The notes under the pieces: model-generated
The model's database searches: none
Told to the model about the DNA's origin: nothing
Seen by the model: the letters and a program-made list of their open reading frames with translations, nothing else
Shown here: positions 8,682 through 23,248 of the stretch, one piece after another
How positions within the stretch are numbered: position 1 is the first letter of the stretch
Layout of the letters: every line of letters begins with the position of its first letter
Program-made: the position numbers and the translations under genes
NCBI RefSeq assembly: GCF_028583425.1
Contig: NC_072791.1
Coordinates: forward strand, 189,448,311-189,512,310
Origin: Eublepharis macularius
Lineage: Eukaryota; Chordata; Lepidosauria; Squamata; Eublepharidae
Reading direction: 5' to 3'
Length of the DNA: 64,000 bases

Positions 8682-8910
8682 GATTGGTGGTTAGAGTGTC
8701 AGGCTATGATCTGGGATATCCAGGTGTGAATCTCCACTCTGCCATGGTAACTCAATGGGTGATCTTGGGTCAGTCATACAACCTCAGCCTAACCTACTTT
8801 GCAGGGTTGTTCTAAGGATAAAATGTAGGTGAGAACAACAATGCAAGCTGTTTTGGGCTCCCATTATGGAGAAAGGTGAGGTATAAATGAAATAAATAAA
8901 AAATATTTAT
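8682..8910 (+). mobile_element. tRNA-derived SINE (sense)
   Basis: The tRNA-like head carries a B-box-like stretch (GGTGTGAATCTCCACTCTGCC). It is followed by the conserved squamate SINE body: CTCAGCCTAACCTACTTTGC, GGGTTGTT, GGATAAAATG, and then GAGAAAGGTGAGGTATAAATG. The tail is (AAAT)n-like. This is nearly full length for the family, at about 230 bp. The same family appears at 21,266-23,248, 26,441-26,656, 43,438-43,662 and 49,801-49,950. Confidence 0.85.
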
Positions 8911-21265: not shown

Positions 21266-21377
21266 AGAGTGATGTAGCAGTTACAGTGTTGGACTAGGAT
21301 CTGGGACACCTAGGTTCAAATCCCCACTCTGCCATGGAAGCTCGCTAGGTGACCTTCGGCCGGTCACACACTCTCAG

Positions 21378-21609
21378 AGCCAAGCTACAAGTGACGCCTG
21401 ACACAGGTTGGACACTTGTTAGCTTCCCTCAAGTTTTGATGGGAAATGTAGACGTCCTGGTCTTGCAGCTTGGCTCTCTGACTGCTGTCCAATGAACTTT
21501 TCAACTGTCACTTGTCCAACATTCCACCAAGCTGCCTACATTTCCCATCAAAACTTGAGGGAAGCTGACAAGTGTCCAACCTGTGTCAGGTGTCACTTGT
21601 AGCTTGGCT
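21378..21609. mobile_element. palindromic MITE with CTCAG target duplication
   Basis: The ends are AGCCAAGCTACAAGTGAC and GTCA-CTTGTAGCTTGGCT, with long inverted arms of about 75 bp running through GGTTGGACACTTGT, TTCCCTCAAGTTTTGATGGG and AAATGTAG. The 5-mer CTCAG flanks both sides (21,373-21,377 and 21,610-21,614). The 232-bp body is non-coding. A second copy of the same family is at 32,476-32,705, flanked by CTGAG. A 5-bp palindrome-like target does not fit hAT, piggyBac or mariner, so the superfamily is open. Confidence 0.85.
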
Positions 21610-21665
21610 CTCAGCCTAACCTATCTCACAGGATTGTTGTGAAGATGAAATGGAGGAGCAGAATT

Positions 21666-23162
21666 GATTCGGTTTCGTTTTCTTGGCCATGTCGGACGCT
21701 CCTCTCCGCAGGTCCGGGAGGAAGTGCCCGAGCACCCTGACCGGGCGGCTGATCTGCGAAGATTAGCCCCCAAGACTCCCATTGAGGGAGGCAGGGTCTG
21801 GGACGCTGCAGGAAGAGCCCCCCGAAAATCAATGTGGGGGGTAAATTGCCCGTTTGTCCCTATGGAGACCAGCAGATGTGCGTGGCGCCTCGAGTGCTGC
21901 CGGGCCATGGAAAACGGCAAAGAGCAGAACTAGGCGGAAGCCTGTAAGTAAGCGAATCCCTTCTGTTATTACAAGCGCACGCGAAGGAGTGGTGGGATCT
22001 GAAGCTAAGAAGGCTCGTTCTTCCCCTTCGCTGAGTTTCAGAATCTGGCTGGCGGTCCCCCCCCCTAAAATGGCAGCGAAAAAACAAAGTCCCGCTCTGG
22101 GCAAGTCAATCTCGGCTGCCCTGCAGGGGAAGGGAGAGTCGCTCGAGGAATTGGTGCGGAGGGCGGTTATCGAAGCCATAAAACCCTTTGTTGACAAGCT
22201 GAACGAAACAGATCAAAGGGTGGGCTTAATTGAGAGCGAAGTGAAAACCATTAAGGAAGCAGCGGGGGGGGCAGAGAAGTCTGCTCGGGAAAGTGCGTCA
22301 CTCGTGAAGGCTACAAGTAAAGAGTTAAAGCTGGTGGAGAACCAGCTGATTGGGCTACAAGTGGAACGAACACAGACAATTTTGCGCCTCCAGAACGTGA
22401 AAGAGGAGGAAAATGAGGATTTATGGGGTCTGGTCTTGGAACTATTGGCGACACCCGCGAAGGCAACTAAAGAAGAGGTTAAAAGCGCCATTTTGGAAGT
22501 CCGCCGGGCTTCTTCAAAATATGCAACGAAGCGTCAGCTGCCTCACGAGATCATCATCAATTTTTCATCTAAAAGGATCCGAGACACTATCCTATACAAT
22601 TCATATAACGCGGATCTGGACTTTTTGGGTAACAAAGTTAAGATACTAAAAAACGTCCCATTTTTAGTTCGGAAAAGACATTTTAAGTATAAAAAGCTCG
22701 CAGCTCTTCTGAGGGAACGTGGAATAAAGTACAAATGGCTATTTCCGGAAGGAATCTGGTTCAGTTACAAAGATCAAGCTTACAAGATATTATCAGAAGA
22801 TCAACTAAGGGATTTTGAGGACGAAAATCCAGAATTTCAGCGCACCAAGCAAGAAGAAAAGGAGAAGTCTGAGGGGGGGGGAGGAAACGAGCACTGTGGC
22901 TGCAGTTGCTCAGAGAGAACTGCGTCCGGGACCCAGGAGGGGGAGGAAAACTTAATTTGAATTTGAATTGTAATTTGCATTTTGTAAGGTCAACCACTCC
23001 ATCAATACTATACAAAGCTTAATTTTTTTAATAATGGCAGTATGAAGGGAAAGCATTCTGTGTAGTGTAGTTGTTATATGTTGTTGTTGGTTTTTTTTCC
23101 TTTCCTTCCCTTGTTCCCCTTTCTTTCCTTTGTATTGTTAGTTAATGTAGTTAATTAAAAAA
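21666..23162 (+). mobile_element. L1 ORF1-only (HAL1-like) retrotransposon
   Basis: A 1.5-kb unit has a 5' leader, one long L1 ORF1, a short 3' UTR with a pyrimidine-rich tract, and an A-rich end. It is bounded by a perfect 18-bp target-site duplication, AAATGGAGGAGCAGAATT, at 21,648-21,665 and 23,163-23,180. No ORF2 (endonuclease/reverse transcriptase) is present between the ORF1 stop and the tail. The structure matches the HAL1 (half-L1) type known from mammals, but it could be an internally deleted L1 that was then retroposed. It interrupts a SINE. Confidence 0.85.
22070..22960 (+). CDS. L1 ORF1p-like RNA-binding protein (296 aa)
   Basis: This is the L1 ORF1 protein, the trimeric RNA chaperone of L1 particles. 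The preferred start is 22,070 (MAAKKQSPALGK); the frame is open back to 21,854, but that part has no family similarity. Residues about 18-105 are heptad-rich and predicted coiled coil (LEELVRRAVIEAIKPFVDKL onward). An RRM-like domain follows, with ILRLQNVKEEEN, RRASSKYATKR and PHEIIINFSSKRIRDTIL. The C-terminal domain shows ALLRERGIKYKWLFPEGIWF and ILSEDQLRDFEDENP, parallel to the human protein's order. The tail is short and acidic/glycine-rich. The frame has no stops or frameshifts, which suggests a fairly young insertion. Confidence 0.85.
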   Translation: MAAKKQSPALGKSISAALQGKGESLEELVRRAVIEAIKPFVDKLNETDQRVGLIESEVKTIKEAAGGAEKSARESASLVKATSKELKLVENQLIGLQVERTQTILRLQNVKEEENEDLWGLVLELLATPAKATKEEVKSAILEVRRASSKYATKRQLPHEIIINFSSKRIRDTILYNSYNADLDFLGNKVKILKNVPFLVRKRHFKYKKLAALLRERGIKYKWLFPEGIWFSYKDQAYKILSEDQLRDFEDENPEFQRTKQEEKEKSEGGGGNEHCGCSCSERTASGTQEGEENLI

Positions 23163-23248
23163 AAATGGAGGAGCAGAATTATATAAGCCACTTGGTTCTT
23201 CATTCGGGAGCAAGGTAGGGTATAAATAAAATAAAATAAACCAACACT

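Follow-up and report, generated by a model that had tools for sequence, protein, structure and literature searches.

The 1497-base unit at positions 21666-23162 (+ strand) of the window, by which we mean the whole 64,000-nucleotide stretch of Eublepharis macularius DNA that was analysed, is very probably a copy of a large family of L1-type retroposons that carry ORF1 and no ORF2. The family comprises at least two subfamilies, its ORF1 bears the mark of purifying selection on internal branches, and its members likely move by means of their own ORF1p and the endonuclease (EN) and reverse transcriptase (RT) of an L1 acting in trans.

The features of the unit and of its insertion site are listed in Table 1. 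The original prediction placed here a leader, an ORF1 and a 3' UTR with an A-rich end, all enclosed by a perfect target site duplication (TSD) and lacking ORF2, and each of these parts was recovered at the locus. From the stop of ORF1 to the A-rich end, no open reading frame corresponds to ORF2. The two copies of the duplication are identical over 18 bp; as its leading A's may partly belong to the A-tail, its length is better given as 16-18 bp. The flanks are the two parts of a host SINE tail. Two other SINE copies of the window (26553-26434 and 8783-8900, 72-73% identical) span the joined flanks and carry a single AAATGGAGGAGCAGAATT stretch, showing that the unit was inserted into the SINE tail. 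The predicted RNA fold of the 3' UTR of the window unit is not stronger than that of shuffled sequences (z 0.67). The same SINE is also interrupted, near two CTCTCAG repeats, by a 242-base foldback at 21373-21614 (89-base arms, 92% complementary), which is likely a MITE.

Table 1. Features of the window unit and its insertion site, and loci of two other L1-type families of the genome.
Feature	Position or loci	Strand	Remarks
Host SINE tail, left part	21615..21647	+	insertion site; other SINE copies align across
5' TSD copy	21648..21665	+	perfect 18-bp direct repeat AAATGGAGGAGCAGAATT
5' leader	21666..22069	+	404 bases, GC-rich; putative promoter
Splice-donor-like CTGTAAGTAAG	21942..21952	+	in the leader; candidate by sequence
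ORF1, L1 ORF1p-like	22070..22960	+	296 aa; ATG at 22070, stop ends at 22960
ORF1 residues 103-253, aligned to gecko L1 ORF1p	22376..22828	+	hhalign probability 98.4, E 6e-15
Nine-G run	22873..22881	+	length varies between copies and shifts the frame of the C-terminal tail
3' UTR	22961..23162	+	202 bases, A-run at end; end common to the best 40 copies
3' TSD copy	23163..23180	+	same perfect repeat AAATGGAGGAGCAGAATT
Host SINE tail, right part	23181..23240	+	other SINE copies align across
Family D	L049, L051, L053-L056, L058, L060, L063, L068, L069		above Pfam cut-off
ORF2-bearing gecko L1 (L1-A)	L050, L062, L064, L066; 3' parts L074-L076		EN and RT pieces

The product of ORF1 was compared with known structures and profiles. 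It matches human L1 ORF1p (PDB 2yko) over residues 45-262 with an E-value of 7.9e-4. When a profile of three proteins of the family was searched against the PDB, two LINE-1 ORF1p were the sole matches at E <= 0.01, with weaker values of 0.007 and 0.009. Alignment to the ORF1 of a gecko L1 that has ORF2 downstream gave 28% identity over residues 103-253, a segment that we take to be the RNA-recognition and C-terminal domains by homology to human L1 ORF1p. The score of the window ORF1 against Pfam PF02994 (Transposase_22) is 14.2 bits, below the cut-off of 22.4. A structure predicted from three sequences reached a mean pLDDT of 47.6 and was left out of fold searching. On the strength of these alignments, the ORF1 of the window family is homologous to L1 ORF1p.

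In order to find relatives of the unit, we searched the assembly (2.24 Gb, 72 contigs). The best 40 of 5092 first-look candidates of the DNA search comprise the window copy itself and 39 others that are full-length and 93-97% identical to it; we refer to these 40 copies as subfamily A. A script detected end repeats of at least 11 bases in all 39 other copies. Under a strict rule that places the TSD ends at most 3 bases from the 5' end, 38 of the 40 copies pass, with duplications of 14-20 bases. The insertion sites of these 38 copies fit T(T/C)/AAAA, the second slash marking the start of the TSD: the first TSD base is A in 28 and the preceding base is T or C in 32. This is the nick pattern of the L1 endonuclease. 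The duplications thus appear to sit at L1-type nick sites, which is consistent with mobilisation in trans by L1 ORF2p.

Since the 40 copies were taken as the best DNA matches, their shared ends are partly due to construction, and we therefore drew an independent sample with a 26-base ORF1 motif alone. The motif has 1479 exact occurrences in the genome (729 and 750) and its reversed control none; the 32-mer that starts the leader occurs exactly 554 times, its reversed control again never. Of the 1479 occurrences, 100 were listed by position, and the sequence 3' of ORF1 was read at the first 40 of these, all on contig C1. The family 3' UTR directly follows ORF1 in 39 of them, reaching the reference end in 19 and matching in part in 20, the sole exception being L126. 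The partial matches, among them L125 where the match stops after 137 bases, apparently stem mostly from other subfamilies with different 3' ends; the 3' flanks taken together suggest, by their sequence, several subfamilies. Searched by tblastn with ORF2 pieces of a single gecko L1 family, none of the 40 loci has ORF2 after ORF1, which bounds the ORF2-bearing share at less than 7.2% (95% bound). ORF2 matches do occur at L115 and L129, where they start only after a gap of about 30 bases beyond the aligned element and seem to be remnants lying next to it.

These data leave next to no probability to a one-off deletion derivative, or a 3'-truncated L1 retrocopy, that stayed intact by chance: nothing beyond the single locus speaks for it, and it is ruled out by the 39 full-length relatives with common ends and by the absence of ORF2 from the motif sample. 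The proposal that many copies would share both ends and lack ORF2 holds for the subfamily A matches, the motif sample and the subfamily B copies described below. The unit thus belongs to a family and is not the only copy that lacks ORF2.

A protein search with ORF1 extended the family. The best 126 of 23419 first-look candidates are all near-full-length. From this list, which is ranked by ORF1 match, we read 24 copies of a second subfamily, B: 4 high in the ranking and 20 at intervals further down, each from a row free of stop codons. All 24 have ORF1 only, none has ORF2, and 21 bear end repeats of at least 9 bases; most of the leader is missing from one copy (L093). Four B copies were aligned with the window unit; along positions 1-1465 of its 1497 bases, a stretch that takes in the leader and the 3' UTR, identity is about 71%. 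When the A majority sequence is compared with a single B copy (L070), there are 2 differences in the first 45 leader bases, 83 in the remaining 357, and 128 in 336 after codon 252. Of the 40 A copies, 32 keep the GT of the splice-donor-like element and 7 have GC instead; among B copies, the GT is invariant in the 23 that contain the stretch. Between A and B, dN and dS are 0.19 and 1.19 according to YN00 and 0.16 and 1.61 according to LWL85, while NG86 saturates. Synonymous divergence of the two subfamilies therefore exceeds one substitution per site and is at or near saturation. Despite a dS of about 1.2, both show the identical order of ORF1 followed by the 3' UTR.

In searches of protein databases with sequence and alignment queries, the sole relatives of the window ORF1 are two proteins of Eublepharis macularius, P0001 and P0002. 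A control query with the ORF1 of the ORF2-bearing gecko L1 found just one protein, so the database result is uninformative as to other species carrying the family. P0001 is encoded on C1 at 100% identity and belongs to subfamily B. P0002 shares 76% identity with P0001 across 219 residues and 74% with the window ORF1 across 57% of its length, from which we conclude that further subfamilies exist. In P0002 (LOC129341943), the first ~48 residues are unmatched to the family ORF1 and the remainder matches; the N-terminal part is possibly an exonisation or an artefact of the gene model.

On C1 between 11.8 and 116 Mb, C-type 5' ends are paired with the ORF1 motif in 1 of 13 cases, T-type ends in 7 of 13. 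A complete L1 sharing the leader was considered as the source of this mismatch. B copies read GAC in place of the GAT of the motif in 18 of 24 cases, and among the B copies with the exact 5' end the motif is present in 4 of 11. The motif is thus a minority form in B, which accounts for at least part of the deficit.

The window copy itself departs from the A majority sequence at 2.7% of sites (40 of 1495), which makes the claim of recent mobilisation weak for this copy. Its frame had been described as free of stops and frameshifts. This holds for the core (codons 1-262), which is open; past the G-run the frame of the tail varies. The C-terminal ~25 residues occur in three frames among the 40 A copies (12, 9 and 7 copies), the other 12 ending early, and ORF1 reaches at least 294 codons in 28 of the 40. 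B tails are more uniform, 21 of 24 sharing one end, ...[TS]NL[IMT]A[YC]. The tail of the window copy is in an alternative frame, not the one that aligns with subfamily B. Moreover, its ORF1 has changed at residues kept in both the A majority and P0001, among them R159H, D164N, D195N and R204H. Given these changes and the alternative tail frame, the open frame of the window copy need not mean a working protein.

A dN/dS comparison across copies had been put forward in the original prediction as a means of revealing selection on ORF1. Changes were counted by parsimony, branch by branch, and internal branches were compared with tips. On the A tree (262 codons), 16 nonsynonymous and 53 synonymous changes but no stop fall on internal branches, against 202, 135 and 15 on the tips (Fisher p 2.5e-8). 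On a joint tree of A and B (252 codons), with dN/dS scaled to a neutral ratio derived from the UTRs, the counts of nonsynonymous, synonymous and stop changes are 16, 52 and 0 on internal A branches (dN/dS 0.17) and 193, 120 and 12 on A tips (0.89). Internal B branches have 27, 66 and 0 (0.21) and B tips 116, 93 and 0 (0.63), the B tips being biased and free of stops because the B copies were picked from rows without stops. The stem carries 78, 113 and 0 (0.35). In subfamily A, the odds ratio is 0.20 in the true frame. No depletion was seen in the two wrong frames, with odds ratios of 1.69 (p 0.13) and 3.05 (p 0.01, in the opposite direction), and none that was significant when the leader was read as codons in its three frames (0.51, 1.30 and 0.83; p >= 0.11). 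The effect holds when CpG transitions are excluded (p 3.7e-6), on a tree made from the UTRs only (p 3.7e-5) and with both measures combined (p 5e-5). As far as substitution patterns tell, this shows purifying selection on ORF1 on the internal branches, and much less of it on the tips; the comparison did reveal the selection it was meant to detect.

Selection on internal branches cannot by itself separate a parent from its offspring. It could therefore be that of a rare living complete L1 with the ORF1 and UTRs of the family, which would repeatedly shed ORF1-only copies. The ORF2 tally covers sampled loci, outside of which lie many C-type 5' ends, and such a parent could be rare. We consider this explanation improbable, as no ORF2 was found in the 40 motif loci or the 24 B copies, as each of the 40 A matches is a unit of 1.5 kb, and as ORF1 is followed by the 3' UTR in both A and B in spite of their synonymous divergence.

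Alternatively, the copies could be processed pseudogenes of a host gene. L1TD1 is a domesticated L1 ORF1 gene of mammals, and the mRNA of a similar gecko gene could have been retrocopied by L1. Two Eublepharis loci are annotated by NCBI as proteins (P0001 and P0002), and retrocopies of an mRNA would likewise have common 5' ends, A-tails and duplications. However, the P0001 locus is one of the 24 B units, with an A-tail and a duplication like the others. Both A and B contain nested clades, with nonsynonymous and synonymous changes on their internal branches, a pattern more in line with a succession of several source copies than with one gene, and at least 1479 exact motif copies is a high number for a single gene. 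We thus regard a host gene as a quite unlikely source and retain a mobile family that encodes its own ORF1p.

Other L1-type families are present in the genome. Out of 22 loci recognised by the Pfam Transposase_22 model (PF02994), 11 form a second ORF1-only family, which we call D. These 3.2-kb loci share a 1.65-kb unit that starts at about GGGGGCGTGG and ends with an A-tail; 10 of the 11 have duplications of 9-20 bp, and 4 keep an open frame of 326 aa or more. The D family resembles the window family in having ORF1 only, an A-tail and duplications, but the 5' and 3' ends of the two differ, and their ORF1 are 22-24% identical where tblastn aligns them (9 of 11 loci). By these sequence comparisons, D is unrelated to the window family. 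Its internal branches carry 8 nonsynonymous and 9 synonymous changes. The ORF1 of the ORF2-bearing gecko L1 (L1-A) is homologous to that of the window family over residues 103-253, with 26-32% identity in the aligned part. In contrast to the window family, its ORF1 is followed by ORF2, and the similarity of its flanks to those of the window family is limited to short tracts of low complexity, none longer than 26 bases. The 3' end of L1-A (L074, L076) seems to be an AT-rich stretch without an A-tail.

How could such a family move? Transcription by pol II would start from a promoter within the element, located in the conserved leader, and ORF1p would then coat its own RNA, in what is known as cis preference. 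A complete L1 would provide ORF2p in trans, the EN and RT of which would carry out target-primed reverse transcription. The loss of ORF2 would predate the split between subfamilies A and B, and ORF1 would stay selected without ORF2 because of this presumed cis preference. We found no complete L1 that has the same UTRs and ends, or an ORF1 close to this one, in comparisons that covered one ORF2-bearing gecko L1 family. Mammalian elements driven by L1 are not known to need matching 3' ends; the mismatch of the UTRs thus leaves the compared gecko L1 as a possible helper. According to PMC2666806, an Alu RNA transcribed by pol II in tissue culture required L1 ORF1p besides ORF2p, and such a requirement would explain why ORF1 is retained in an ORF1-only element.

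Elements of this kind are reportedly known from mammals as HAL1 or half-L1 (Bao and Jurka, 2010). A second system for comparison is HeT-A of Drosophila telomeres, which has kept a Gag-type protein without a reverse transcriptase of its own and has persisted for a long time. HeT-A is telomeric, belongs to another non-LTR clade and is thought to obtain the enzyme from a partner element. The gecko family also keeps an ORF1 protein without its own reverse transcriptase and persists long, but it is dispersed at L1-type nick sites, unlike HeT-A. As regards mammals, a passage of PMC5753468 describes HAL1s as ORF1-only derivatives of L1 that arose several times. They are reported to have a poly(A) tail and target duplications, to number nearly 2,100 copies in human and to depend on the RT and EN of full-length LINEs (passages of PMC5753468, PMC5322556 and PMC3627910). 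The coding capacity of ORF1 was kept for ~29-44 Myr in guinea pig HAL1, a retention taken in the relevant part of PMC3627910 to imply that ORF1p in cis and ORF2p in trans are both required.

The gecko family is likewise ORF1-only, multicopy and dispersed, with an A-tail and TSDs at sites of the L1 EN type. It differs from HAL1 in the class of its host and in that an ORF2-bearing L1 with matching UTRs was not found. It further differs in having two subfamilies at or near synonymous saturation that are both ORF1-only, next to an unrelated second ORF1-only family. The half-L1 reading of the gecko family is supported at the sequence level: the HAL1-like element of the original prediction does encode an ORF1p with homology to L1 ORF1p, lacks ORF2, has an A-tail and TSDs, and is present in many copies. 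Given its different host class, its origin is probably independent of that of mammalian HAL1.

We found no report of ORF1-only L1 elements in squamates in the open-access literature (titles and openings of abstracts; Repbase lay outside this search). The anole genome was among those screened with RepeatMasker libraries for full-length L1 and HAL1, and the passages of PMC5322556 on this screen give no HAL1 outcome for anole. Part of the 2016 paper on the leopard gecko genome assigns 19% of the genome to unknown repeats (PMC5080775). The gecko family is a half-L1 kind outside mammals, of unusual depth and with a companion family. We lean slightly towards a broader reading, in which the ORF1-only way of life is stable and recurrent in this reptile. 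ORF2 would have been lost once and several subfamilies would have followed (two of them separated by a dS above 1), each with its ORF1 selected for use in cis, and an unrelated second family would have evolved in the same genome. These elements would then be gag-carrying parasites of L1 that outlive their parent.

The finding extends half-L1 elements beyond mammals and provides natural, replicated evidence on cis preference: if a non-autonomous element is selected for its ORF1p, this protein must work mainly on the RNA from which it is translated. Having at least 1479 copies with the exact motif, several subfamilies and a second, unrelated family, the leopard gecko genome is well suited to measuring the persistence of such parasites and their cost to L1 hosts.
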